12,360 bases of DNA from an uncultured Dyadobacter sp. (GTDB taxonomy: Bacteria; Bacteroidota; Bacteroidia; Cytophagales; Spirosomataceae). The notes below the pieces were generated by a model that was not told where the DNA came from, did no database searches, and was given only the letters and a program-made list of their open reading frames with translations. The position numbers and the translations under genes were made by a program. The stretch is from assembly GCA_946481035.1 (NCBI GenBank), contig CAMLNK010000029.1:1-12360 (forward strand), given 5' to 3'. Shown here one piece after another: positions 1 to 12,360 of the stretch (within the stretch, counting starts at the first letter, position 1; every line of letters starts with the position of its first letter).

Positions 1-2380
1 GATGGAATGGATCCTGATAACGGACAAAAAACCATCGGTCAATGGTGCCCATCGCTACCAATTCATCCGCTAATGGAGCGACAATGTCTATCAGAATCTT
101 TTCAAGAACTGTGGGTCCCGAATAAATTTTCACGTATAACCAATCGTCACCCGGTATAAATTTCCGAGCCACGTTTTCAGCTAAATAATAAGGCGCTGAA
201 GGTTTCAATTGAGGATCGACAGATTTAAACGGAATGATCAGCTCGTTCGCATACCTATTACCGTCATGGTCACCGACCACACATTGCTCAGGCGCTGAGA
301 GAAATTCTTTAAGCTCTACTTTTCCTTTTTTCTTTAACTCGTCTGCAAGAATAGATTTGGCAATAGGCAAATGCAAATCCAGCAGCATCTCATTATCCCG
401 GTCCACAAGTTGGACGTACCTGGGAACACCGTATATTTCAACAAACTCATCTAACTTTCCCGTCCAATCCGCACCCAAATTCCACGTTTTTCTGCTCAGG
501 ACCAGACTATTAAATTGTACCCTTGGTAAAACCGGGCGATCTTCCAGTACTGACCAATGCCAATTAATCTCAACAGAGTCTGTTTGGATATCGCAAAGAA
601 ACCGGTAAACCGGGAGCTCCGTACTATAATTATGCGCATTCGACAATCTGGGAATGACTTGCTTCCCTAGCTTCTTTGAACGCAAAACTAACTGCTTTCC
701 TCCTTTCACAGATACGGTAAGGTCATCAATTGGCAGCTGATAACTTTCCGATGCAGCGGACCGGGTGATAAATGGAATTTCAAAAGAATAAAATGGAGGA
801 TGAGAAAGCACGTTTCCAGTTCGGGATTCCGGAAAAAATATTATTTCTGCCAGAACAGCATCCTTGTAACTGCTTTGCTCATATTCCGCTATTTCAAGCA
901 ATCGCTCCTTCAAATGGTCGTCCGAATTGGCAAAGCGGGACAAGAGCGTAATACCTGAATTCCCACCCAGGTAATTGAGATTAAACCTGGTATTCAGGCC
1001 GTCCTCATCTTTAAAAAGGTTCCCTATTCCATAAAAGCTTGCCGGAAGATCTGGTGGAGTTGAAAAAAAATGGAAATCATTTTTAGTTAACTCAATACAG
1101 TCGGTCTTGTTCTCTAAGTACTTAATGTAAATACTCAGAAGAAACCGGTCCCAATCACCAAACTCCTTTCGATTCCCATTCAAAGGAACCAATTCAATTC
1201 CGTCTAGAACAGCGGTAGTGCTAAGCCGGGAATTGTCGCCGTAATCTATGCCCAGCTCCCCGTCCAAAATAATCGCCAGCGGCATCTCCGCTTCCCCATA
1301 TCTTTCACTAAACTCTTTTTTAAAATTCGCCAACGCCGGCTTTGACCTATTTGCAAGCAACGGAGCTATCTGAACAAGATCTTTCTCAATTATAGCCCTC
1401 GTTGCCTGACTGATCTGGGCGCTTGTATATTTCTGCTGTAATGTCACCTGAATCTGAACGCTTTCCGCGGTTGCCTGCAAAAGATTGTCGAGCAACCCAT
1501 TGACTGTTTGCATCGATTCGACAGACAATCCCGAACCTCCTTTTAAAGACGCGGCAATTTGTTCCAGATCCGACAGGAATGATTTGTCCGCCTTCGACCT
1601 TCTTAATTTGTCGATAAGCATTGTCAGCCCGTTTCCGTCGGTAATTTGCGCCTCGAATTCATTCTGAATAAGTTTCAGGTCGACTAGGTCCTGCACACAT
1701 TCATCGCATTCCACAACAGAATACCCCCGTGACACGAGCTCCTGGCGGATGTCGCTCAGATAACATCCATTGTTGGCCAAGGCCAGAACCGGTTCCAGAG
1801 CGGCGAAATTTTGAACAAAGGACAAAAAGTATTCCCTATGCCCGCGAACGGGTTCATACTCAACATACCGAAACCCATCACCGACCTTGTAAATACTGTT
1901 ATTGCTGAAAAATCGCGCGTTTTCCTTCACACAATCGTCCAGCAGAGCAAGCTCTGCCAGGCGATTGATAACCAGAATGTCCAATTCAATAAAAGACTGA
2001 TCGCTTTTCCTGTCGACCTCGATAGACGTTTGCTCACCCCACCCTGCCAGAGCAACTCCCGAGAATAATCCGTACGGCGTAGCCCGGGTACAGATCCTGC
2101 CCCAATATTTATAGAGTGTTTTCAGTAAACTCTCTTCTTCGGAGATGATTTCTCCATCGAGCCATTTTTTTGCCCGTTCGAAAAGTCCCGGCGAGGCTAT
2201 GTAAATGGCTTTAAGGAACTCGGGTTCATTTCGGATACAACTCCTGAAAAAATCCGGAAATGACAACGGTTCCTCAGGCCTGTTTTCACCAGTTTCCAAG
2301 AACAGATTGACCGGAAAATTTGGCCTTCGAATGGTAAAGAAGTTAAAAGAACGAAATTGAGGTTGACGCTTTACTTCCAT
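1..2380 (-). CDS. LanB-type lantibiotic dehydratase (partial, runs off left edge)
   Basis: The reading frame is open from an ATG at 2380 to the window edge, giving 793 residues with no stop; the C-terminus is missing. Full-length LanB enzymes (about 1000 residues) activate Ser/Thr of a precursor peptide with glutamate from glutamyl-tRNA and then eliminate it to give Dha/Dhb. Seen here: an N-terminal R18-R-P motif; GRICTRATPYGLFSG, in which R95, R99 and T101 have the spacing of NisB R83/R87/T89, residues needed for glutamylation; ILDGELGIDYG in mid-protein; GGNSGITLLSRF further on; then W783-FFVRYQDPFH, the beginning of the SpaB_C/thiopeptide-type elimination domain. Both domains are therefore fused in one chain rather than split. 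The gene starts 41 bp after a small peptide gene on the same strand, which suggests an operon of substrate and enzyme. Any cyclase or exporter would lie left of the window. Family assignment is strong; the product chemistry is not known. Confidence 0.93.
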   Translation of the reverse strand, partial: MEVKRQPQFRSFNFFTIRRPNFPVNLFLETGENRPEEPLSFPDFFRSCIRNEPEFLKAIYIASPGLFERAKKWLDGEIISEEESLLKTLYKYWGRICTRATPYGLFSGVALAGWGEQTSIEVDRKSDQSFIELDILVINRLAELALLDDCVKENARFFSNNSIYKVGDGFRYVEYEPVRGHREYFLSFVQNFAALEPVLALANNGCYLSDIRQELVSRGYSVVECDECVQDLVDLKLIQNEFEAQITDGNGLTMLIDKLRRSKADKSFLSDLEQIAASLKGGSGLSVESMQTVNGLLDNLLQATAESVQIQVTLQQKYTSAQISQATRAIIEKDLVQIAPLLANRSKPALANFKKEFSERYGEAEMPLAIILDGELGIDYGDNSRLSTTAVLDGIELVPLNGNRKEFGDWDRFLLSIYIKYLENKTDCIELTKNDFHFFSTPPDLPASFYGIGNLFKDEDGLNTRFNLNYLGGNSGITLLSRFANSDDHLKERLLEIAEYEQSSYKDAVLAEIIFFPESRTGNVLSHPPFYSFEIPFITRSAASESYQLPIDDLTVSVKGGKQLVLRSKKLGKQVIPRLSNAHNYSTELPVYRFLCDIQTDSVEINWHWSVLEDRPVLPRVQFNSLVLSRKTWNLGADWTGKLDEFVEIYGVPRYVQLVDRDNEMLLDLHLPIAKSILADELKKKGKVELKEFLSAPEQCVVGDHDGNRYANELIIPFKSVDPQLKPSAPYYLAENVARKFIPGDDWLYVKIYSGPTVLEKILIDIVAPLADELVAMGTIDRWFFVRYQDPFH

Positions 2381-2421
2381 TGCTAGGCGGAAATGATCAG
2401 AACATTCACTAAGTTAGAAAA

Positions 2422-2562
2422 CTATCGCCTCATAAAAGTTGTAGTTTCCACAATAGTGGTACTGTCAGTTCCAAATGCACCATTTAGCTTTGCTGAGTTT
2501 TTAGCTTTAAGCTTTAAAATTCTTTTTCTTTCAGGTCTGATTGAGATGTTGTTACTAGGCAT
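2422..2562 (-). CDS. putative cysteine-free LanA-like RiPP precursor peptide, 46 aa
   Basis: A short ORF lies on the lanB strand, with ATG at 2562 and TAG at 2422-2424, 41 bp before the dehydratase start. An in-frame stop 10 codons upstream leaves this ATG as the only sensible start. Residues 1-28 are basic and leader-like; residues 16-27, LKLKAKNSAKLN, match the L-x-L-x7-L-N spacing of leaders of Bacteroidota class I lanthipeptides (typical form LSLNKETISNLN), although the central K-x-T-I is not conserved. A Gly follows, then a core ending GTDSTTIVETTTFMRR with seven Ser/Thr in 16 residues. There is no Cys anywhere, and reading through the stop adds only FSNLVNVLIISA, also without Cys. I infer it is the substrate of the adjacent LanB. 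It could instead be a chance ORF, or one of several precursors whose others lie outside the window. Confidence 0.62.
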   Translation of the reverse strand: MPSNNISIRPERKRILKLKAKNSAKLNGAFGTDSTTIVETTTFMRR

Positions 2563-2589
2563 GGTAGATGTTGTTTTAAGATTTACATC

Positions 2590-2617
2590 CTAAACTAATT
2601 CCACGCCCAATAATCAA
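2590..2617 (-). promoter_or_regulatory. possible promoter of the peptide-lanB operon
   Basis: On the minus strand TAGTTTAG (2597-2590) matches the Bacteroidota -7 box TAnnTTTG at all but one position. A T-rich stretch ending in TTG (2617-2615) lies 17 bp upstream as a possible -33 element. The predicted start of transcription falls about 20 nt before the peptide ATG. The mismatch and the short spacer make this tentative; read-through from the regulator gene upstream is the alternative. Confidence 0.3.
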
Positions 2618-2656
2618 AAAATAAATTAGACAAAACGGAGATTTTTTTAGACCAAA

Positions 2657-3421
2657 TCATATTATTCGGCCTTGCAGGTTCTTCAATAATGTTTCCCGGA
2701 AGGTTGCACCTATTGTGAGCTTCTGCTTATTCGAAAGTTCCACCTCGTTACCGTTTATCGTATTTATTTCCCGGATGTTAACGATATACGATTTATTAAT
2801 CCGGATAAATTGGTGCTTTCTGAGTATCTCCTCCATTTTTGTGATCGTCATGTGAACAATGACCATCGATTTAACGAGGTGGATTTTGAGGTAATCCTTC
2901 ATTCCCTCGACATACACAATTTCTTCAATGTTGATCTTGATAAGCTTCTTCTCACTTTTAACCATGAAGAACTTCTCCGTGGAAAATTCGTTCTCGGTCA
3001 GCATCTTCTGAGAAAGGCTACTATCAATGTCTCCTCCCCAAACATTATTCTTCAATTCAATCTGTTCAGAGACCTTGTTCACAGCCCGAACAAAACGATC
3101 AAAGGAGATAGGCTTCAACAGGTAATCCACAACGCCAAAATCATAACTTTCCGCCGCGTAGTTCGTATAAGCGGTAGTGAAGATAATGTAGGGCCGTCTG
3201 CGGGCCAGCATCTTTACCATCTCCATACCGGAGACCTCGGGCATATTGATATCAAGAAATACAATGTCCGGATTTGTGTTGTGAATAACCTCCAATGCCT
3301 TCAATGAATTCTGGCACACCGCCACAAGATCCAGGTATGCCAGACGCTCTACATATCGCCGCAAAAGGTCCTGTGCAAAAGGTTCATCATCAACAATCAG
3401 GCATGTAATGTTCTTTTTCAT
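2657..3421 (-). CDS. LytTR-family response regulator
   Basis: The protein has 254 residues in two domains. The receiver domain (about 5-120) has the acidic pair D11/D12, phospho-acceptor D57 in VFLDINMPEVSG, T83 and K103 in DYLLKP, all the residues expected of an active receiver. A linker follows, then a C-terminal LytTR DNA-binding domain (about 150-250) with IEEIVYVEGMKDYLKIHL and FIRINKSYIVNI, typical of the AgrA/LytR/AlgR fold. Its ATG overlaps the stop codon of the upstream histidine kinase (ATGA), so the two are translationally coupled and are surely partners. Downstream on the same strand, 94 bp away, is the peptide-lanB pair; divergent beyond the kinase is susC. Either may be its target. 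No clear LytTR direct repeats could be picked out by eye. Confidence 0.95.
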   Translation of the reverse strand: MKKNITCLIVDDEPFAQDLLRRYVERLAYLDLVAVCQNSLKALEVIHNTNPDIVFLDINMPEVSGMEMVKMLARRRPYIIFTTAYTNYAAESYDFGVVDYLLKPISFDRFVRAVNKVSEQIELKNNVWGGDIDSSLSQKMLTENEFSTEKFFMVKSEKKLIKINIEEIVYVEGMKDYLKIHLVKSMVIVHMTITKMEEILRKHQFIRINKSYIVNIREINTINGNEVELSNKQKLTIGATFRETLLKNLQGRII

Positions 3422-4566
3422 TTTAAACTAAGACGTAAATAAATTTTATACACTGAATCAGAGTCGTCAATTTTCAATTCATGCTGACCGGGGTAATAAA
3501 TATCCAATCTTTTCCTTAAATTAACTAATCCAATGCCGCCCTTTTGAGCACCTGGTCTTTTCCGCTGGGGCTTACTATTGCTAACTTCAAAATTTAGCCG
3601 GGAGCCGTCGAGCACGATTTTAATCTTTACCCAGCCATCTTCTATGGTGTCGAGCCCGTGTTTGAATGCATTTTCAACGAACGGAACCAGTAAAAAGGGA
3701 GGAATACGGTAATATTCAAAACTACCTGCCGATTCGAAGTTGATTTTGGAAGTATTCGAATGCCTTATCCTCTCCAGGGCAATGTAGTCTTCCAAAAACA
3801 ATACTTCCTTGGAAAGGTACACCTGTTCAGAATTCGATTCATAGAGCAGGTAGCGCATCAGGTCTGCCAGCTTAAGAATCGTGTCGCCCGCTTCCTGATT
3901 TGTCTCTTCAACCATCGAGTAGATGTTGTTGAGACTGTTGAATAAGAAATGAGGATTGAGCTGAGACCTTAAAAAGTCGAGTTCCAGGGCCAGATTATCC
4001 TTTTGCAGTTGCAGGTTTCTATTAAAATAAAAAAAAGTGTTGCCAATACCGATTATCGCCAGGGGAACAACAATATAATTACCTGTCATCGCCCAGATGT
4101 ACAAGTCGACGAACCGGTCAAAAGGGACTTTAAGCAGGCTGATATCACTCATCCGCTGGTTAGCCAAAAGCACAAATTTGGAAGCACCAGGCATCCCTGC
4201 CAGAAGTCTGATTGAAAAGTAAATAAAATAGGCATTAAAAAAATATACTACTATCGCGACGATTATAAATAAGTAGAATCGGGAAGAAAGACATTTTTTC
4301 AGCGCATAGGTTAGCGAAAACAGGGACGCAAGAATAACCGCGAAAATGCTGTTTGTGAAAATGCTATTCCACATCTTGTCGCCCGTCGACGCGATAGTCA
4401 CGTTGAAGTCCGACATAATATAAAACCAATACAAACAACTAAATATCAGATATTTAGAAATCCTCACGTATCTGTTATTCAACCACAGGTCTTCAAACGA
4501 CATGGCCATATATTTGAGATTATCACGCAAAGCTTGGGAACGCCTACTTAAACTGTACTGCCACAT
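3418..4566 (-). CDS. LytS/YehU-type membrane sensor histidine kinase
   Basis: The protein has 382 residues from ATG 4566; a TTG at 4569 is also in frame, and M20 or M22 (4509, 4503) are possible later starts. The N-terminal half has about four hydrophobic membrane segments (YLIFSCLYWFYIM, the FTNSIFAVILASLFSL region, the YLFIIVAIVVYFFNAYF region, and one around VVPLAIIGIG), with no large periplasmic sensor domain. The His_kinase domain follows with LRSQLNPHFLFNSLNNIYS and phospho-acceptor H206. The ATPase domain has an N-box PFVENAFKHG (N299) and a glycine-rich GGIGLVNLRKRL. This is the standard layout of the LytS family that pairs with LytTR regulators. The signal is unknown; with so little exposed protein it may sense a membrane state or an accessory protein. 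The stop codon overlaps the response regulator start. Confidence 0.93.
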   Translation of the reverse strand: MWQYSLSRRSQALRDNLKYMAMSFEDLWLNNRYVRISKYLIFSCLYWFYIMSDFNVTIASTGDKMWNSIFTNSIFAVILASLFSLTYALKKCLSSRFYLFIIVAIVVYFFNAYFIYFSIRLLAGMPGASKFVLLANQRMSDISLLKVPFDRFVDLYIWAMTGNYIVVPLAIIGIGNTFFYFNRNLQLQKDNLALELDFLRSQLNPHFLFNSLNNIYSMVEETNQEAGDTILKLADLMRYLLYESNSEQVYLSKEVLFLEDYIALERIRHSNTSKINFESAGSFEYYRIPPFLLVPFVENAFKHGLDTIEDGWVKIKIVLDGSRLNFEVSNSKPQRKRPGAQKGGIGLVNLRKRLDIYYPGQHELKIDDSDSVYKIYLRLSLK

Positions 4567-4595
4567 CAATATTTAAAATTAGTTACCATTGCATA

Positions 4596-4612
4596 TTGCC
4601 GGCATTCGGCAA
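4596..4612. repeat. small inverted repeat between kinase and susC
   Basis: TTGCCG (4596-4601) and CGGCAA (4607-4612) form a perfect 6-bp inverted repeat around five bases. It lies in the divergent region between the kinase and susC starts and could be an operator or a leader hairpin of susC. No TAnnTTTG box stands clearly beside it, so its role is a guess. Confidence 0.3.
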
Positions 4613-4669
4613 GAAGTACAAATGCTTTTCTTATCATTGCGAATCACATTTCACCTCATCAACCGGTTT

Positions 4670-7600
4670 ATGAAAGCATTTTTGCTGGCATTTTGCATGT
4701 TTTTAAGTCAAGGGGCCCTAAATGCGCAGGACAGACAAGTTTCTGGTAAGGTAACGGACCAGGATGGGGCCGCTTTACCTGCGGTGTCTATTCAGGTTGA
4801 AGGAACCAATAACGGAATTATAAGTGATGAAACGGGTTCTTTTAATATTGTAATTCCGGAAAATTCCGGCGTGCTGATATTTTCGCTGGTCGGCTTCGTA
4901 AAAAAGGAGGTAAAGGTAGGAAATGAATCAGTAATTAACATTGTCCTGACGCCCGATAACAAATCTCTTGCGGAGGTGTTGGTAGTCGGTTATGGTACCA
5001 AAATTAAAAAAGATATCACGGGCAGCATTGCAAGTGTTAAAGGATCTGAGGTCGCAAATACTCCAATTGCTAATTTTACCCAGGCCCTGCAGGGACGGCT
5101 CGCGGGGGTTTTTGTCGAATCCAACAGCGGAAAGCTCGGTGAAGGAATAAAGGTGCGCATTCGCGGGACCGGCTCAATCAGCGCTTCCAATGAACCCTTG
5201 TATGTTGTGGATGGAATACCGATCAATGCTGCATCACCGCCGGGCATACCGCTTTCCGGCACTACCGCCATTTCCTCTTCGGTCAATCCGCTTGCGGATC
5301 TCAATACGAACGATATAGAATCATTTGAAGTCCTGAAGGACGCTTCTGCTGCCGCAATTTACGGGTCACGTGCGGCAAATGGTGTTGTATTGATCACTAC
5401 AAAAAAAGGAAAATCCGGAAAGACAAATATCACCGCCAATTTTCAGTATGGGTTCAACGAACCTACCCGCCGACGTAAATTTCTGGATGCAAAGCAATAT
5501 GTCAGTCTGCTTAGGGAAGCTGCAATTAATTCGGATATCCGAAAAGGCATCGATCCTACCGACCCAAGCCAATACAAAGATTCATGGCTGAAACTCGCCG
5601 AAGACCGTATGGACCGCTATTCAGGCGGGACCGACTGGCGCAGTTACCAAACAAACACTGACTGGCAAAAGCTTGCATTTAATAACCACTCCCGAACGAC
5701 TCTTGTAGATATAGGTGCATCAGGCGGCAATGACAAAACCAGATTTTATATAAACGGCGGTTATAATGGTCAGGACGGGATTCTGTTTGGAAATGACTTT
5801 AAAAGATTATCAGCCCGAATCAATCTGGAACATGACTTTAATACAAAATTAAGACTTGGCGTTAATATCGGGCTGTCCAGAACCATCGCCAATCGAATTG
5901 CACAGGATAATCAATTCTCAACACCTATGCAGATCGTTGCCCTCGCCCCGATTACACCGCCCTACGACAAAAATGGTGCTGTCAATGACAGGCCGGTCAC
6001 AACCTATTACAATCCATTGATCGAACTTGGCAATTCCCGCGATAAATCATCTGCTTACAGAAACATCGGCAATGCTTTTTTTAGCTATAACATCACCAAA
6101 GGTCTCGCATTCAGATCCGAGTTGGGGTTTGATGTCGTCAATCAGGACGAAGACGTTTTTTATGGTGTAAAAACAGAAACAGGTCAGTCGGTAAACGGAC
6201 AAGGAACATCGTACTGGTTCCGTAATGTAACCTATAATACCAACAATTATTTCAACTATAACACCTCGATCAATACAATCCATGCCCTGGATTTCACTGC
6301 CGGGATGTCGTTTCAGGACTACAAAAACGACCGCAATTACGTAACAGGGCAAGATTTCCCTGTGGACGCATTAAAAAAAATAGAAAGCGCCGGTAAGATT
6401 ATTGCGGGCTCGTCCTCGTCTTCGGAATCTTCATTTCTATCCTATTTCGCCCGCGCCAATTACAAGCTAAAAAACCGCTATCTTTTTAACGCCAGCGGAA
6501 GAATCGACGGCTCCTCCAAATTTGGAAAGAACAAAAAATACGGCTTTTTCCCGGCAGTCTCCGCCGGCTGGATCATATCGGAGGAATCATTTTTATCCCA
6601 ATCCGGAGTACTCAGTTTTCTTAAATTGAGAGGAAGCTGGGGTATCACAGGCAATGCAGACGGTTTCGGTGATTTTAAACAACTTGGCTTGTGGGGGGCG
6701 GGGAAATATGCAGGGTCCTCCGGGCTTATTCCGACACAGCTTGCCAACCCGGACCTTAAATGGGAAAAATCCAAACAGGTTGACTTCGGAATTGATTTCG
6801 GAGTTTTTAACAACAGGCTTTCCGGCGAAATAGACTACTATATCAAAAATACCAATGATCTGATTTACGACGTTCCGGTGCCCGGCATTTCAGGATTCGC
6901 TACGCAAACTGTAAATGTAGGGTCCATCCGGAATAAGGGCATTGAAATCGCAGTCAGCTCAACGAACCTTGCTACCACGTCTTTCAAATGGAGTACAAGT
7001 TTCAATCTTGCAAAAAATACCAATAAAGTAACCAAACTGGATGGAGGACAAAACCTGGTACCGAGCAACGACGGGCGCTTCTTTAATGCACTGAAAGTAG
7101 GCGAATCGATCGGAATATTTTACGGCCCGAAGTTCGCTGGTGTGGACCGGGCAAACGGTGATGCACTTTATTATCAACAGGACGGACAGGTCACGAACGA
7201 TTATAACTCGGCTGGTAATTTTATAGTCGGAAACCCTAACCCGGACTGGATCGGCGGCATTTCCAACTCATTGACTTTCAAAAACCTGGAACTGAACATT
7301 TTATTTCAGGGTGTCTTTGGCAATCAAGTCCAAAACGGGGCGGGTGCATTTATGAGTTCGAGCTTTGACTGGTTCGATAACCAAACCGCCGACCAGCTGA
7401 ACAGGTGGCAAAGAGAAGGAGACATAACAAATGTACCGCAATTAAGACTATCAGGAGGTAATGGTACCGGCGCGTCCAGTCGCTACATTGACGATGCGTC
7501 TTATGTGAGACTGAAAAATATTACCCTCGCCTACCGATTCCCGGCGTCCCTACTTCAAAAAATTAAATTGAGTGCTGCCAAACTTTACATTACCGGCATC

Positions 7601-7744
7601 AACCTGGCAACTTTTACAAAATACTCAGGTTGGGACCCGGAGGTAAATGCTGACTATCGTGCGAATAACCGGAATCAGGGCGGCGACTTCTATTCTGCAC
7701 CGCAGATCAAATCGCTTACATTAGGTATTAATCTGGCATTCTAA
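4670..7744 (+). CDS. SusC/RagA-family TonB-dependent outer-membrane transporter
   Basis: The frame is open from 4589, but I place the start at ATG 4670, because residues 1-19 from there (MKAFLLAFCMFLSQGALNA, then QD) make a normal signal peptide, whereas the longer start buries it behind 27 residues. The mature protein (1024 residues in all) has a carboxypeptidase-regulatory-like domain (about 22-98, VSGKVTDQDG to SLVGF), a TonB-box-like EVLVVGYG (about 102-109), a plug with ALQGRLAGV, RIRGTGS and PLYVVDGIPI, and the SusC signature DASAAAIYGSRAANGV around residue 229. A long beta-barrel follows, ending in SLTLGINLAF with the terminal Phe of outer-membrane proteins. It imports a ligand captured by its SusD partner, encoded 17 bp downstream. 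Nothing nearby reveals the substrate: there is no glycosidase, sulfatase or peptidase. Confidence 0.96.
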   Translation: MKAFLLAFCMFLSQGALNAQDRQVSGKVTDQDGAALPAVSIQVEGTNNGIISDETGSFNIVIPENSGVLIFSLVGFVKKEVKVGNESVINIVLTPDNKSLAEVLVVGYGTKIKKDITGSIASVKGSEVANTPIANFTQALQGRLAGVFVESNSGKLGEGIKVRIRGTGSISASNEPLYVVDGIPINAASPPGIPLSGTTAISSSVNPLADLNTNDIESFEVLKDASAAAIYGSRAANGVVLITTKKGKSGKTNITANFQYGFNEPTRRRKFLDAKQYVSLLREAAINSDIRKGIDPTDPSQYKDSWLKLAEDRMDRYSGGTDWRSYQTNTDWQKLAFNNHSRTTLVDIGASGGNDKTRFYINGGYNGQDGILFGNDFKRLSARINLEHDFNTKLRLGVNIGLSRTIANRIAQDNQFSTPMQIVALAPITPPYDKNGAVNDRPVTTYYNPLIELGNSRDKSSAYRNIGNAFFSYNITKGLAFRSELGFDVVNQDEDVFYGVKTETGQSVNGQGTSYWFRNVTYNTNNYFNYNTSINTIHALDFTAGMSFQDYKNDRNYVTGQDFPVDALKKIESAGKIIAGSSSSSESSFLSYFARANYKLKNRYLFNASGRIDGSSKFGKNKKYGFFPAVSAGWIISEESFLSQSGVLSFLKLRGSWGITGNADGFGDFKQLGLWGAGKYAGSSGLIPTQLANPDLKWEKSKQVDFGIDFGVFNNRLSGEIDYYIKNTNDLIYDVPVPGISGFATQTVNVGSIRNKGIEIAVSSTNLATTSFKWSTSFNLAKNTNKVTKLDGGQNLVPSNDGRFFNALKVGESIGIFYGPKFAGVDRANGDALYYQQDGQVTNDYNSAGNFIVGNPNPDWIGGISNSLTFKNLELNILFQGVFGNQVQNGAGAFMSSSFDWFDNQTADQLNRWQREGDITNVPQLRLSGGNGTGASSRYIDDASYVRLKNITLAYRFPASLLQKIKLSAAKLYITGINLATFTKYSGWDPEVNADYRANNRNQGGDFYSAPQIKSLTLGINLAF

Positions 7745-7761
7745 TTTCAAATCGCTCCGAC

Positions 7762-9108
7762 GTGAAAATATTCACCTTCTTCCTTGTTGTTTCTGCTTTG
7801 CTGCTTAATTCATGCTCGGGCAAGCTGGATTTGGTTCCGCAGCAAAACACAACGTCAGAGACCGCACTCAGCTCCGATGCCAACGTGAAACGTGTGCTCC
7901 GCGGTACATATGATGCCGCCAGCGACCAGTACGTTTTGGGAGGCAACCTCATGCTTTTTTCGGAATTACTGGCAGCGAATGGAGAAATCACGTGGGAAGG
8001 CTCGTATAACCAGCCGCGTGAAGTTTTTACCAAGAAAATATTGGTCACAAACAGCTACGTCACCGAGGGATGGCTGAAAAGTTTTCAAACCATCCATATT
8101 GCTAACAGTATTTTGTCCGCCCTGGAAGTAGTGGCGGATAAAGATCGTGAACGGGTGAAAGGCGAGGCACAGCTTCTGAGAGCCCTGATGTATTTCGAAC
8201 TGGCAAAACTGTATGCCCCGCCATATAGTGCCGGCAATGTAACGGCAGCCTTGGGGCTGCCGCTTGTACTTTCCCCAATTGTGACGGCAAGCGATGGCAA
8301 AAAAATACCCCGAAGTACGCTGGCAGAAACCTATGCCCAGATTGTCAAGGATATGACCGAAGCCGAAGCACTCCTGCCTGCAACCAACGACGTGTTTTTA
8401 AACAAGATCGCGGCATCGGGGTTTCTTTCCCGCGTATATCTGCAAATGGGGAATTATGAAAAGGCCCTGGAATTTGCAGATAAGGGAATAGCCCTGGCGG
8501 TAAAAAATGGTTACGGTCTGTTGGTAAACTATGCGGAAGCTTTTAATAACACCGTCAATTCGCGGGAGGATTTGTTCTCGATGCAGGTATCCGAGCAGGA
8601 TGGAAGTAACAACATGCAGCTTTTCTGGTCTGTTCCCGAATACGGAGGAAGAGACGGTGATGTAGTTGTTCAGGCAAAACACCTCTCCCTTTACGAAAAA
8701 GGGGATACGAGGTTGAACCTCTTCTATACCAGCAATGGTGCCGCCCGTAGCGGAAAATGGAAATTAAAGTATAAAAATATTCCCCTGCTACGGCTTGCAG
8801 AACTGTATCTTACCCGCGCCGAATGCAATATGCGCTTGTCATCATCCGTGGGCGGCAACCCGGCCGACGACCTGAATCTCATTAGAAAGCGCGCAGGCGT
8901 TTCGGCAATTGTCAGGCCCTCTCTATCTGATATCCTCCATGAACGCAAACTTGAACTCGCACATGAAGGGCAAGCAATTCACGATCTGAAAAGACTTAAA
9001 GGACAAACAGATGGTTTCGAATATGATGCTCCTTATCTGGTCCTACCGATTCCGCAAAGGGAAATCGATGCATCAGAAGGCACTTTGAAACAAAACAAGG
9101 GTTATTGA
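7762..9108 (+). CDS. SusD/RagB-family surface lipoprotein
   Basis: Translation starts at a GTG (7762), the only start that yields the lipoprotein signal MKIFTFFLVVSALLLNSC with lipobox Cys18. The 448-residue protein is a little shorter than many SusD homologues. Family hallmarks are visible: GTYDAAS near the N-terminus, an early TPR-type helix with EAQLLRALMYFELAKLY followed by GLPLV, later IPLLRLAELYLTRAEC, the ERKLELAHEGQAIHDLKRL helix and a C-terminal LPIPQREIDASEGTLKQNKGY. SusD proteins sit on the cell surface as a lid over the SusC barrel and bind the ligand. The 17-bp gap to susC indicates one operon. The next gene is convergent, so the operon ends here with only two genes; there is no rho-independent terminator that I can see. 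Confidence 0.95.
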   Translation: MKIFTFFLVVSALLLNSCSGKLDLVPQQNTTSETALSSDANVKRVLRGTYDAASDQYVLGGNLMLFSELLAANGEITWEGSYNQPREVFTKKILVTNSYVTEGWLKSFQTIHIANSILSALEVVADKDRERVKGEAQLLRALMYFELAKLYAPPYSAGNVTAALGLPLVLSPIVTASDGKKIPRSTLAETYAQIVKDMTEAEALLPATNDVFLNKIAASGFLSRVYLQMGNYEKALEFADKGIALAVKNGYGLLVNYAEAFNNTVNSREDLFSMQVSEQDGSNNMQLFWSVPEYGGRDGDVVVQAKHLSLYEKGDTRLNLFYTSNGAARSGKWKLKYKNIPLLRLAELYLTRAECNMRLSSSVGGNPADDLNLIRKRAGVSAIVRPSLSDILHERKLELAHEGQAIHDLKRLKGQTDGFEYDAPYLVLPIPQREIDASEGTLKQNKGY

Positions 9109-9118
9109 GTTTGTAATT

Positions 9119-9604
9119 CTAGCTCATCTCCACACCATAATCCCGCAGAGAATTTACAAAATGTTCGATGACGTGCGCCGGTGGCGGACCTGCCGGGCTG
9201 GGTAGTGCTGCGCCGTCCGGTGCGGGCGTGCTATTATCCCAAAACCATTGATCCAGTCCTGCCGGGCTTATCCACATCAGCACTTCCGCCTGCTCGGACT
9301 GTATTTCGAACTTGTGCGGGACATCTTTCGGGAGGTATACGTATTCACCTGCATTGACGGTCAATACCTGGTCTCCAATCGTGTAACGGATACTTCCGTT
9401 AATAATAAAATACGACTCGTCCTCCCGTGAATGGGTATGCGCGGGCGGCTCCGACCCACGGTTTACCACAATCCGCATCAGCGCTTGCCTGCCTTCCGTT
9501 TCGTGGCCCATTGAAAGAAAATTAAATACCGCACCAGGAATTGCCCGTGTGTTTTCAGCATTCGCCGAGGATTTAAACCCGTTTTGTGATTGCATTGTTT
9601 TCAT
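9119..9604 (-). CDS. single-domain cupin protein
   Basis: The 161-residue protein has one cupin_2 barrel. The first cupin motif fits the classical spacing exactly: G50-x5-H56-x-H58-x4-E63-x6-G70 (HTHSREDESYFIING). The second motif, GEYVYLPKDVPHKFE, supplies H97. The full set of three His and one Glu metal ligands is therefore present and the protein probably binds a divalent metal. The Pro-rich C-terminal tail ending in LRDYGVEMS resembles that of small bacterial cupins often labelled quercetinase-like; the reaction cannot be told from sequence. It is transcribed divergently from a marR gene and its start region carries one of two identical-type palindromes, so it is the likely target of that regulator. 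It converges on susD with 10 bp between them. Confidence 0.9.
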   Translation of the reverse strand: MKTMQSQNGFKSSANAENTRAIPGAVFNFLSMGHETEGRQALMRIVVNRGSEPPAHTHSREDESYFIINGSIRYTIGDQVLTVNAGEYVYLPKDVPHKFEIQSEQAEVLMWISPAGLDQWFWDNSTPAPDGAALPSPAGPPPAHVIEHFVNSLRDYGVEMS

Positions 9605-9615
9605 GTTAATTTAAG

Positions 9616-9632
9616 TTAGTCAGTTTAGCTGA
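9616..9632. promoter_or_regulatory. MarR operator, copy 1 (cupin side)
   Basis: TCAGTTTAGCTGA (9620-9632) is a dyad of TCAGTT and its reverse complement with one mismatch around a central T. It is preceded by TTAG, so 9616-9632 repeats 9659-9675 with a single difference. It lies just downstream of the cupin -7 box, over the expected transcription start, a position suited to repression. Confidence 0.7.
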
Positions 9633-9633
9633 C

Positions 9634-9641
9634 CAAAATTA
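9634..9641 (-). promoter_or_regulatory. -7 box of the cupin gene
   Basis: The minus strand reads TAATTTTG, an exact fit to the Bacteroidota -7 consensus TAnnTTTG, 30 bp before the cupin ATG. No TTG is found at the usual -33 distance, so the promoter may be weak or need help. Confidence 0.5.
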
Positions 9642-9651
9642 AATAATGTTT

Positions 9652-9684
9652 TTGAATATTAGTCAGTTTAACTGATTATTTTTG
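9652..9684 (+). promoter_or_regulatory. promoter of the marR gene
   Basis: TATTTTTG (9677-9684) matches TAnnTTTG exactly and is 16 bp before the ATG. TTG at 9652-9654 is a possible -33 element with a rather long 22-bp spacer. The second operator copy fills that spacer, so MarR bound there would block its own promoter. Confidence 0.5.
9659..9675. promoter_or_regulatory. MarR operator, copy 2 (marR side)
   Basis: TCAGTTTAACTGA (9663-9675) is a perfect 6-bp inverted repeat around a central T, again preceded by TTAG. Its centre is 43 bp from that of copy 1, close to four helical turns, so two dimers would sit on the same face of the DNA. Confidence 0.72.
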
Positions 9685-9700
9685 AAAAAATATTTTTCAC

Positions 9701-10129
9701 ATGTCAGAATCGAATACAGGGGTTTACTTGCGACAGTTATATGATTCATTGGTCACCAATCTTCATCAGGAGCTTGCATTACAAGGATATGCAGAAATTA
9801 CACCTTCTCATGGCTTAATTTTTCAGTATCTCGACGAACAGGGGTCCCGCATAACTTCCCTTGCGAGCCTGGCGGGAATGACCAAGCAGTCTATGAGCGC
9901 ATTGGTTTATCAGCTCGAAAACATGGGATACCTGGCCCGCACTCCCGATCCTGCTGATGGCCGGGCGGTCCTTTTTATCCTAACTTCCAAGGGCAAGCAA
10001 CTTAAAAAAACAGCCCAAGGCATCAATCGAGGTTTTGAACGGCGATGGGAAGAGGCAGTAGGCGCAGAAAACTATCAACTGCTCAGAGGATTGCTGCTAA
10101 AAATAATTGAATCTGCTTCCCAACAGTGA
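9701..10129 (+). CDS. MarR-family transcriptional regulator
   Basis: The 142-residue protein has the normal MarR length and layout. An N-terminal dimerisation helix (RQLYDSLVTNLHQEL) is followed by a winged helix-turn-helix at about 50-95: ITSLASLAGMTKQSMSALVYQLENMGY carries the recognition helix, and RTPDPADGRAVLFILT is the wing with the conserved D-G-R (86-88). The C-terminal helices complete the dimer. There is no Cys, so redox sensing through a thiol is unlikely; a small-molecule ligand is the usual trigger. The gene is divergent from a cupin gene, and the shared region has two matching palindromes. The protein therefore probably represses both genes until its ligand appears. Confidence 0.95.
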   Translation: MSESNTGVYLRQLYDSLVTNLHQELALQGYAEITPSHGLIFQYLDEQGSRITSLASLAGMTKQSMSALVYQLENMGYLARTPDPADGRAVLFILTSKGKQLKKTAQGINRGFERRWEEAVGAENYQLLRGLLLKIIESASQQ

Positions 10130-10218
10130 GCACCTTCATCAACTAATCTTCTATTTACCAATCAGTTAACACTTCTAACACTCGCTTACTTCTCCAAATA
10201 TGAGCAGTACTACCTATG

Positions 10219-10242
10219 AAAATGGGTGGTAACCTCCATTTT
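10219..10242. repeat. inverted repeat upstream of the small lipoprotein gene
   Basis: AAAATGG (10219-10225) and CCATTTT (10236-10242) form a perfect 7-bp inverted repeat with a 10-base centre that itself holds GGTAACC. No T-run follows, so it is a poor terminator for marR. It ends 19 bp before the -7 box of the next gene and may be an operator. Confidence 0.35.
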
Positions 10243-10261
10243 ATGGGCATAGCACGGCCGG

Positions 10262-10269
10262 TAATTTTG
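10262..10269 (+). promoter_or_regulatory. -7 box of the small lipoprotein gene
   Basis: TAATTTTG matches TAnnTTTG exactly. It overlaps the GTG at 10269 that opens the longest version of the downstream frame, which argues that translation begins later, at the ATG at 10320. Confidence 0.4.
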
Positions 10270-10319
10270 TGATGTCGAAAAACAAAGACACTCATTTAAA
10301 ATCACAAAGTCTATCCGCC

Positions 10320-10538
10320 ATGAAAACGCTTTTCAAATCCGTCCTGAGTACATCGTTGTGCGCCCTGATTCTCTCGTGCGAGACGGAGAAAGAGCCCGTT
10401 AGTTGCGTGCAGGAACCTTCGGAACAGCCGATACAGATTAGGAATGGAGCCTCCGCCAGTCGGGAAAGCATCGAATCCGGGACATTTTACGGGACGAAGA
10501 GCGTCGAGGTCGCGTTCATCCTGACCAATCTGAACTAA
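10320..10538 (+). CDS. small putative lipoprotein of unknown function
   Basis: The frame is open from 10269, but the ATG at 10320 gives a clean lipoprotein signal, MKTLFKSVLSTSLCALILSC, with the lipobox cysteine at residue 20 (L-I-L-S-C). A predicted -7 box overlaps the upstream start, which supports the choice. The product has 72 residues, about 52 after cleavage; the mature part is charged (ETEKEPVSCVQEPSEQ), holds one more Cys and shows no domain I recognise. The residue after the lipid-bearing Cys is Glu. It may share a transcript with the glycosyltransferase 81 bp downstream, as no terminator separates them. It could also be a decayed remnant of a longer gene, since nothing in it resembles a known fold. 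Confidence 0.55.
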   Translation: MKTLFKSVLSTSLCALILSCETEKEPVSCVQEPSEQPIQIRNGASASRESIESGTFYGTKSVEVAFILTNLN

Positions 10539-10545
10539 CCTTCCA

Positions 10546-10555
10546 GATAGCTATC
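10546..10555. repeat. 10-bp perfect palindrome
   Basis: GATAGCTATC lies 8 bp after the lipoprotein stop, followed by AT-rich DNA with a run of nine T at 10592-10600. The palindrome is too short and lacks a loop to be a convincing terminator. No TAnnTTTG box was seen in the 81-bp gap. Confidence 0.25.
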
Positions 10556-10619
10556 AATGCATTAATAATCAATCACATACATCTGTTTCCATTTTTTTTT
10601 AAATCAATTCCTGTTAGCC

Positions 10620-11921
10620 ATGAAAAAAATACTTTTTGCCAACATGCCCTACGAAGGCCATTTCAATCCTTTGACCGGTATCGCAATGCACCTGAAATCG
10701 CTCGGGCACGACGTGAGGTGGTATTCCGGAAGCATTTTCAAAGAAAAGATCGACGGCCTCGGCATTCCCTACTACCCTTTCAAAAAGGCGCTTGATTTCA
10801 ACCAGCACAATGTACACATCCTTTTCCCCGAGCGCGACAAGATCCGCGGGTCAGTCGGCAAACTGAAATATGACCTCAAAACTGCATTCATACTCAGGTC
10901 GACGGAGTTTTATGAAGATATCAAAGAGATTAACGATTCCTGGTCATTCGATTTGCTTATCAGCGACGTCGCATTCACCGGCATGCCGTTCGTGAAGGAA
11001 AAACTGAATAAGAAAGTAGTGTCGGTCGGTGTGTTCCCACTGGTCGAAACTTCGCGGGATCTACCTCCTACGGGACTGGCTATGACGCCATCCACCAGCT
11101 TTTTGGGGCGAAGAAAACAGGATTTGCTTCGCTTTCTGGCGGATAAGATCATCTTCCGGGAAGCCGGCAATCTCTTCGGCAGGCTTTTCCGCGAGCACGG
11201 GCTGGTTCCGGTAGCGGGCAATATTTTCGACGTTCTCGGCAAAAAAACGGATCTCCTCCTTCAAAGCGGAACGCCCGGATTTGAGTACAGCCGCTCCGAC
11301 CTGAGTAAAAAAGTCCGGTTCGTAGGGCCGTTACTACCCTTCGCAAAAGGCGGCAAATGCATGAACGATCTCGGCGACCAGCTCGGGAAATACGAAAAGG
11401 TGATCCTGGTCACGCAGGGCACGCTGGAAAAAGACCCGGAAAAAATTCTCATCCCGACGCTCGAAGCCTTTAAAGATTCCCCCGTGCTGGTGATCGCGAC
11501 GACGGGTGGCATGGGCACGCCGGAGTTACAGGCGCGGTACCCGCAGGAGAACATCGTTATCCGAGATTTTATCCCTTTCAACGACATTATGCCGCATTGC
11601 GATGTGTACGTCACCAACGGAGGATACGGCGGTGTGATGCTGGGCATACAAAATCAGTTGCCGCTGGTAGCGGCGGGTATTCACGAAGGTAAAAACGAAA
11701 TCAATGCCCGGATCGGCTATTTCAAATTAGGGATCGACCTCAGAACCGAATTTCCGGCACCCGCACAAATCAGAGCGGCAGTAGAAAAGGTGCTGGCCGA
11801 CGGAACCTATAAAAACAATGTAAAAAAACTCAGCAGGGAATTTAAAGAATACAACCCTTACCCGCTTTGTACACAATACATTGATGACCTTCTCGATATC
11901 AAAACACCTGAACTGATATAA
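10620..11921 (+). CDS. GT1/MGT-family glycosyltransferase (GT-B fold)
   Basis: The 433-residue protein resembles the UDP-glucuronosyl/macrolide glycosyltransferase group, which move a sugar from a nucleotide donor to a small acceptor. The N-terminal acceptor half starts MKKILFANMPYEGHFNPLTG, with H14 in the position of the catalytic base, followed by the Rossmann-type SLGHDVRWYS and the DLLISDVAF strand. The C-terminal donor half has VILVTQGTLEK, DFIPFNDIMPHCDVYVTNGGYGG (split here by N333) and HEGKNEINARIGYFKLGI. The usual donor-binding His-Gly-Gly is Asn-Gly-Gly (N333), and the D-Q pair is replaced by E-x-K-N-E; I recall the latter as common in Bacteroidota members of the family. There is no signal peptide, so it is cytoplasmic. 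Its stop overlaps the start of the next gene (TAATG). The acceptor cannot be named. Confidence 0.9.
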   Translation: MKKILFANMPYEGHFNPLTGIAMHLKSLGHDVRWYSGSIFKEKIDGLGIPYYPFKKALDFNQHNVHILFPERDKIRGSVGKLKYDLKTAFILRSTEFYEDIKEINDSWSFDLLISDVAFTGMPFVKEKLNKKVVSVGVFPLVETSRDLPPTGLAMTPSTSFLGRRKQDLLRFLADKIIFREAGNLFGRLFREHGLVPVAGNIFDVLGKKTDLLLQSGTPGFEYSRSDLSKKVRFVGPLLPFAKGGKCMNDLGDQLGKYEKVILVTQGTLEKDPEKILIPTLEAFKDSPVLVIATTGGMGTPELQARYPQENIVIRDFIPFNDIMPHCDVYVTNGGYGGVMLGIQNQLPLVAAGIHEGKNEINARIGYFKLGIDLRTEFPAPAQIRAAVEKVLADGTYKNNVKKLSREFKEYNPYPLCTQYIDDLLDIKTPELI

Positions 11922-12360
11922 TGCTACCCGCCAGTCGATTCGTAGTCATTTTATATTTGCTGTCGGCCCTGACCGTAATGGCCCAGGCAACGGAACCGCC
12001 TGTAATCCAGCTGGATTACGGGCGGCCCAACTATCCTGTCGGACGAAATATGCTGGTACTGGAAGATCCCGCCGGCAAGCTGCGGCTGGATGACGTGGAG
12101 AGTAATCCCGCATTATTTAAGCCCATGACCCAGCAAACGCTGAACGTAGGGCCGAGCGCTTCTACTTTCTGGCTGAAATTGCGGGTGGTCAGTAAAACGC
12201 AAACGGAATGGTTTCTGCACGTAAAAGCGCCATTTCTGCAACGGGTTGATCTGTTTGTAACAACACAGCCGGGTTACGACAATAGCATTAATCACATCAC
12301 GAACGTCGGCTCCGCATTACCTTATCACGACCGGCCAGTCCTCACGAATCGAACGATCCT
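11921..12360 (+). CDS. 7TMR-DISM-type periplasmic sensor protein (partial, N-terminus only)
   Basis: An ATG at 11921 overlaps the glycosyltransferase stop codon, and the frame stays open for 146 codons to the right edge. Residues 1-22 (MLPASRFVVILYLLSALTVM, then AQ) form a signal peptide. Residues about 40-115 fit the 7TMR-DISM extracellular domain 2: VGRNMLVLEDPAG, then LNVGPSASTFWLKLRVVS with the conserved W-L, and WFLHVKAPFLQRVDLFV. This domain is a carbohydrate-binding-like beta-sandwich that usually precedes seven membrane helices and a cytoplasmic output such as a histidine kinase, cyclase or LytTR domain; the output lies outside the window. Translational coupling to the glycosyltransferase suggests a shared function. 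The domain call rests on the pattern only. Confidence 0.72.
   Translation, partial: MLPASRFVVILYLLSALTVMAQATEPPVIQLDYGRPNYPVGRNMLVLEDPAGKLRLDDVESNPALFKPMTQQTLNVGPSASTFWLKLRVVSKTQTEWFLHVKAPFLQRVDLFVTTQPGYDNSINHITNVGSALPYHDRPVLTNRTI

Follow-up and report, generated by a model that had tools for sequence, protein, structure and literature searches.

Gene organization of the locus

The window, that is, the whole 12,360-nt stretch of DNA analyzed here, opens inside a gene for a LanB-type lantibiotic dehydratase. Upstream of it on the same strand lie a small peptide gene, a direct repeat, and the genes for a LytTR response regulator and a histidine kinase (Table 1), so that the small gene is placed between the two-component sensor genes and LanB. 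Its end is 41 bp from the LanB start at position 2380, in agreement with the initial annotation, which had described a 46-codon gene 41 bp ahead of a same-strand LanB. The encoded peptide, MPSNNISIRPERKRILKLKAKNSAKLNGAFGTDSTTIVETTTFMRR, contains no Cys.

Table 1. Position of the peptide gene and its neighbors in the window
Feature	Position	Strand	Basis or remark
LanB, lantibiotic dehydratase, N-terminal 793 aa	2..2380	minus	PF04738 1.1e-109 (Lant_dehydr_N), PF14028 1.5e-12; runs off window edge
Small gene, Cys-free precursor-like peptide	2422..2562	minus	46 aa + stop; ORF, homologues, dN/dS 0.10
Putative core, residues 28-46 (GAFGTDSTTIVETTTFMRR)	2425..2481	minus	seven Ser/Thr, no Cys
Putative leader, residues 1-27 (..RKRILKLKAKNSAKLN)	2482..2562	minus	R12-L16, L18-K21, K25 invariant in 7/7 homologues
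LytTR-type direct repeat TTGGTCTAA-12 bp-TTTGTCTAA, period 21	2626..2655	minus	93 to 64 bp before peptide ATG
LytTR response regulator	2657..3421	minus	PF00072 1.8e-23, PF04397 2.1e-17
Histidine kinase of pair	3418..4569	minus	PF06580 1.2e-24; 6swj histidine kinase 1.3e-16

Because the window LanB is 86% identical to LanB of Dyadobacter sp. CY261, we assign the window to a Dyadobacter-like genome; for the DNA to the left of position 1, we go by what its relatives carry. The database entry for the enzyme (P0003), which differs at 1 residue over the 793 shared, is 1024 amino acids long and has both dehydratase domains, i.e. the glutamylation (PF04738) and elimination (PF14028) domains of class I lanthipeptide synthesis. 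The closest solved sequences are MibB and MadB (9g04/9g05, the latter name taken from the accessible text of PMC12241602).

The small gene encodes a conserved Cys-free peptide

The 46-codon gene is real and under purifying selection. The CY261 copy of the peptide, in the same genomic place, is 91% identical. Of the 16 changes between the two genes, 11 are synonymous and 5 nonsynonymous, and 11 fall at codon position 3, a pattern typical of coding DNA. The resulting dN/dS was 0.098, against 0.12 for LanB. Other homologous pairs gave 0.14–0.25 (five pairs inside the two type A subclades), and one distant pair was saturated. Conservation and dN/dS together rule out a non-coding or chance ORF.

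A protein search with the window peptide returned two clusters only, its own entry and one metagenome protein that is 81% identical over 67% of the query. There was no match in Pfam, and an NCBIfam match to SmpB was rejected as chance level. Using a profile built from seven homologues, we found the Cys-free peptide (hereafter type A) in 5 of 222 genomes of the family, every copy lying directly upstream of an orthologous LanB gene and having a Cys-free core, so that homologues do recur beside LanB. Two extra profile matches had in-frame stops and weak scores.

We place the putative border between leader and core at residues 27/28. The leader has the LxLx7LN spacing claimed for it at the outset (L16-K-L18, seven residues, then L26-N27). 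Its match to the published LxLxKx5L motif is not exact, as the Lys is replaced by Ala, and the second leader Leu is lost in three of the seven type A homologues. Consistent with the seven Ser/Thr in 16 core residues initially counted, the last 16 residues hold seven (binomial p ∼0.0015 on an assumed 12% background). Residues T32, S34, T35, and T40 are invariant in all seven type A peptides, and none of the seven contains Cys, the core residue that class I lanthipeptides need for (methyl)lanthionine.

Related loci form a broader module in the Spirosomataceae

The type A locus exemplifies a broader Spirosomataceae module, made up of a histidine kinase, a LytTR regulator, a short Ser/Thr-rich peptide with an LxLK-type leader, and a full-length LanB, usually with no LanC nearby. 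The LanB arrangement is paralleled at eleven Dyadobacter loci (type B, whose short Ser/Thr-rich cores are rich in Thr and among whose leaders is RLVLKKERLVNL), in 20 further type B regions (LanB in 19), and in five clusters that combine LanB with a radical SAM enzyme (L144–L148, described below). Upstream of LanB, the kinase and regulator genes were present in 17 of those 19 further regions, the other two being contig ends. The type B profile matched 34 of the 222 family genomes; in 29 of the best 30 of these 34, the peptide had a LanB close by, though some of these LanBs are not intact. Run over 395 genomes drawn across the class, the same profile gave three matches, namely G114, a family genome already found, and two weak ones, in G209 (also a family genome) and G276. 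Either the module is largely restricted to this family, as it seems, or the profile fails to pick up more distant versions.

Type B cores are not uniformly free of Cys: 15 of 31 peptides have none, 14 have one, and 2 have two, in a tally that includes near-copies and one peptide (L115) without a nearby LanB. In several type B peptides, Cys occurs within the leader motif only. NF038153, the family model for the LxLxKx5L leader, gave weak sub-cut-off matches for two of the three type B peptides scanned and no match for the two type A peptides scanned. The window peptide does lack Cys together with all its type A homologues, but it belongs to a recurring kind (type B and L144–L148) and is not an oddity. 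Precursors of an LxIDKETI type from the same genus (L041–L043, L046) carry three or four Cys per peptide, with LanC genes close by; one of these precursors has a Cys in its leader.

Many type B loci (e.g. L050:5336-5695) encode a stand-alone protein of ∼120 amino acids between the peptide and LanB; it has no Pfam match and is weakly similar (20–28%) to the adjacent regulator. The L115 peptide, from genome G197, begins MKTQPTTARLNLKKERLVNL.., and no LanB was detected in its 19-kb region.

Searches for LanC

A local profile, made from LanCs of Dyadobacter and applied to 62 sequences, detected no LanC-like ORF in the window (which is cut inside LanB) or in the corresponding regions of CY261 and G007 (L001 and L033). 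All 11 Dyadobacter type B loci were likewise negative, as were 19 of the 20 remaining type B regions, some of the regions searched being short contigs. The exception, L116, has a LanC beside a second LanB. A search of the 222 genomes with PF05147 gave no match at 1e-3 in the type A genome G007, and none in 13 of 30 type B genomes, among them G197, whose peptide has no LanB nearby. The LanC cyclase of class I lanthipeptide clusters was, in short, not detected by the local profile in the window, L001, or L033 or, at 1e-3, in the G007 genome. One below-cut-off LanC-like protein in the G007 cluster (E 0.003) was rejected as a hidden LanC; it is without the zinc-site motifs WCxG and CHG, and the local profile missed it.

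Three type A genomes (G004, G021, G023) do have LanC genes ∼8–12 kb from the type A LanB. These sit between that LanB and a second LanB, nearer the second, which has its own Cys peptides. Separately, seven loci (L040, L044, L045, L047, L048, L053, L070) encode a LanB and a divergent LanC-like protein without the zinc-site motifs; the scans used found no precursor for these LanBs.

LytTR-type repeats precede most of the peptide genes

The direct repeat upstream of the peptide gene has a period of 21 bp, a geometry that we take to be the LytTR signature. A repeat starts 92–103 bp before the ATG in all six type A loci, the window included, and is weaker in L034 and L036 (7/9 bases matching). Across 31 nonredundant upstream regions (6 near-copies of 37 were dropped), 9-mer repeats with at least 8 matches occurred in 13 at period 21, compared with 0–4 at the other periods from 14 to 31. 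Of 42 peptide genes, 31 had the repeat motif in the 260 bp before them and 11 did not, where the density of the motif elsewhere predicts 0.65; as the motif was drawn from the same loci later tested, this enrichment is partly circular, the positions less so. Of 46 sites elsewhere, 44 fell at recurring places, judged from coordinates read by eye: 17 in type A-like clusters, just after LanB or ahead of the operon for Cys-containing peptides, and 27 in type B loci, beyond the regulator gene and next to a divergent helix-turn-helix gene where one is present.

Proposed mechanism

The small gene very likely encodes the substrate of the adjacent LanB, judging by adjacency, co-conservation, and leader resemblance. 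LanB would bind the LxLK-type leader of the Cys-free peptide and dehydrate Ser/Thr in its C-terminal segment. If the peptide is indeed the substrate, the product is probably ring-less: as the peptide has no Cys and no LanC was seen in the closest relatives, it would stay linear and dehydrobutyrine-rich. The linear polydehydrated product foreseen in the initial annotation is accordingly still the likeliest one and the peptide the best candidate substrate, but the modification, and with it membership of an unusual RiPP class, is a prediction.

We further propose that kinase, regulator, peptide, and LanB act as one module, in which the 21-bp-period repeat ahead of the peptide gene is the probable binding site of the regulator. 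Once dehydrated, the peptide would most plausibly be the inducer sensed by the kinase, a role suggested by gene order and repeats that we put forward tentatively. Because LytTR/kinase pairs are common in the phylum Bacteroidota, we infer this sensing role rather than read it from the genes. In some genomes, the same regulator may also control a linked operon for Cys-containing radical SAM peptides. Taken as a whole, this model, in which dehydration, absence of rings, export, and sensing are all predicted steps, is in our judgment evenly poised. Against it stand the one or two core Cys in 16 of 31 type B peptides, the GG-leader Cys peptides that share the cluster in CY261, G007, and L144–L148, the Thr that each of the 10 type A LanBs has in place of NisB Asp299 (see below), the LanC genes near the type A LanB of G004, G021, and G023, and the below-cut-off LanC-like protein of the G007 cluster.

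The broader form of the proposal is that Spirosomataceae use LanB-dehydrated ring-less peptides as signals, with kinase, regulator, Cys-free peptide, and LanB forming a self-contained autoinduction unit across three or more LanB groups; in some of the genomes, the unit would also switch on a linked radical SAM Cys-peptide operon. In that generality, we consider the proposal doubtful.

The same substrate evidence, and the same Thr-rich cores, would fit a linear dehydropeptide that is a secreted effector, such as an antimicrobial, and not an inducer. The best-known role of lanthipeptides is antibiotic, and class I clusters are numerous in Bacteroidota (PMC7268733, in part). However, inspection by eye of the type B genes listed revealed no constant protease, exporter, or immunity gene, the genes downstream of type B LanBs differ between groups, and the peptide gene is tied to the kinase/regulator pair. 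We regard an effector function as rather unlikely.

Cys-containing peptides accompany a radical SAM maturase

In CY261 and G007, Cys-containing peptides with GG leaders are encoded further downstream, at 4.4 and 7 kb from the start of LanB (L001:14475-15144 and L033:14307-14714, three Cys each). They adjoin a radical SAM/SPASM maturase, whose best NCBIfam match in CY261 is TIGR04463 (“rSAM_vs_C_rich”), below cut-off. The operon also encodes a TPR protein and a 2OG-Fe(II) oxygenase/C39-like protein, and has its own LytTR-like repeat; such repeats precede the operon for Cys-containing peptides and radical SAM enzyme in seven related clusters.

The maturase was found in 12 of the 222 genomes at E 1e-60. 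A LanB with kinase and regulator lies upstream of it in seven (CY261, G007, L144–L148). In the other five, the 19-kb region contained no LanB, and clear GG-Cys peptides were recognized in one (L150). Conversely, type B LanB/peptide units occur without such an operon seen nearby. In all five of L144–L148, of which L145 and L146 are near-copies, a short peptide that is rich in Thr and has no Cys in its core is encoded in the gap between regulator and LanB; these peptides were recognized by eye from ORF lists and only loosely resemble the type B leader. The L147 peptide has its sole Cys in the leader. From the Cys-free peptides in these gaps and the LanB-free maturases, we conclude that LanB is paired with the Cys-free peptide and the radical SAM enzyme with the Cys-containing ones.

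A second, Cys-containing precursor that clearly served this LanB had been named initially as what would overturn the Cys-free reading. Candidates do exist in the CY261 and G007 clusters, and if they were the true LanB substrates, the Cys-free peptide would be a decoy, regulator, or accessory. Their distance of 4.4–7 kb, the LanB/radical SAM/GG-Cys combination in 7 of the 12 maturase genomes, and the same type of repeat before their operon all allow this. Yet they are without an LxLK leader and adjoin the maturase, which had no LanB in the 19-kb region in 5 of the 12 genomes, and type B LanBs occur where no such operon was seen; the local profile found no LanC in CY261 or G007; and the gene that adjoins LanB is that of the Cys-free peptide in type A and in L144–L148. 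This assignment appears improbable.

The type A LanBs keep their active-site residues except one

We compared LanB residues and built trees from ORFs of 900–1199 amino acids that passed motif filters. The first set of 55 proteins comprised P0003 with 7 further database proteins, and 47 LanBs taken from 61 loci; an enlarged set of 57 added 2 of the 5 LanBs of L144–L148, and a second tree omitted 7 long-branch rows. Type A and type B LanBs each formed one clade with full support, apart from the LanBs associated with Cys peptides and LanC; the branching between clades was not firm.

By sequence alignment, type A LanBs keep the equivalents of NisB Tyr-80, Arg-83, Arg-87, Thr-89, Asp-121, Arg-464, and His-961 and other elimination residues. 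Residues required in NisB are kept across the 57 LanBs, with three exceptions at the Asp-121 position, all outside type A, and a change at Asp-299. At the latter position (residue 313 of P0003), Thr is present in all 10 type A LanBs; the remaining 47 have Asp (44) or Asn (3).

This clade-specific Thr could mean that type A LanBs have lost or changed glutamylation, leaving the peptide unmodified or modified differently. Asp-299 is among the residues listed as essential in the available portion of PMC12241602, and a figure legend in PMC7296275 also lists it so and states that the Ala mutant abolished dehydration in vitro. In vivo, however, NisB D299A showed only a slight loss and still gave 6–8 dehydrations (PMC4341554, in excerpt). 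Moreover, the remaining NisB residues named above are kept, and the LanB dN/dS is 0.12. An altered glutamylation has, to our mind, little probability. Least credible is a two-peptide thioether conjugate, in which LanB-made dehydro-residues on the Cys-free peptide would react with thiols of the linked GG-Cys peptides: Cys-free Thr-rich and Cys peptides do share cluster and repeat type in CY261, G007, and L144–L148, but no LanC to join them was seen in CY261 or G007, type B loci have the LanB peptide without such a partner seen, and the Cys residues would be expected to serve the radical SAM enzyme. We hold a conjugate to be very improbable.

LanB homologues are widespread, occurring in 29 of 48 genomes of the genus (E 1e-20) and in 117 of 222 of the family (Pfam). 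In L112, L071, and L072, LanB is split over two reading frames, as in decayed or split genes.

Relation to known systems

In the nisin system, a NisB-modified peptide acts as an autoinducer through NisK/NisR. The present locus shares with it a peptide predicted to be dehydratase-modified next to a kinase and a regulator, and differs in that the regulator is of the LytTR type and sensing is a prediction, whereas nisin has Cys, NisC, and rings. With the LytTR peptide-pheromone systems of the AgrA, ComE, and BlpR type, it shares a small peptide gene beside a histidine kinase and a LytTR regulator, and, ahead of the peptide gene, direct repeats whose 21-bp period fits LytTR geometry (six of six type A loci; 31 of 42 overall). 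The peptides of those systems are not LanB products, and we know of no LanB-modified member.

Linaridins and other dehydrobutyrine-containing RiPPs use dehydration enzymes other than LanB. What they would have in common with the module is the predicted dehydrobutyrine-rich product (PMC10880069, consulted in part). With the Bacteroidota class I lanthipeptides that have LxLxKx5L leaders (Walker et al. 2020, PMC7268733, as far as accessible; NF038153), the window type shares a full-length two-domain LanB, the active-site residues but one, and a short precursor with an LxLK-type leader directly upstream. It differs in being without core Cys, LanC (in the closest relatives), and a GG cleavage site, and in having Ala for the leader Lys. 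According to the sections of PMC7268733 available, that survey started from LanC domains, with LanC-less clusters outside its range, and it set aside Cys-free peptides beside LanM enzymes; a LanC-seeded survey of this kind would not start from clusters such as ours. Among the papers listed in searches of open-access PMC, we saw none on LanC-less, Cys-free LanB peptides of the Spirosomataceae module.

LanB enzymes are usually taken as makers of lanthionine precursors. If our reading is true, a conserved family of LanBs that pair with Cys-free peptides and have no LanC linked to them would show that such a pathway can exist for the sake of dehydration by itself. Should the peptides also be inducers, they would define a peptide-signaling route in Bacteroidota with a chemically unusual signal.

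Other genes of the window

The far end of the window (9119-12358) encodes a cupin, a MarR regulator, a glycosyltransferase that matches the macrolide family below cut-off, and the first part of a 7TMR-DISM protein, and these genes show no sign of belonging to the cluster. As regards a plasmid origin, megablast gave no match for window positions 1-4600. Between the cluster and these genes, a SusC/SusD-like pair (4589-9108, plus strand) is divergent from the kinase gene and is also found beside the cluster in CY261 and G007.
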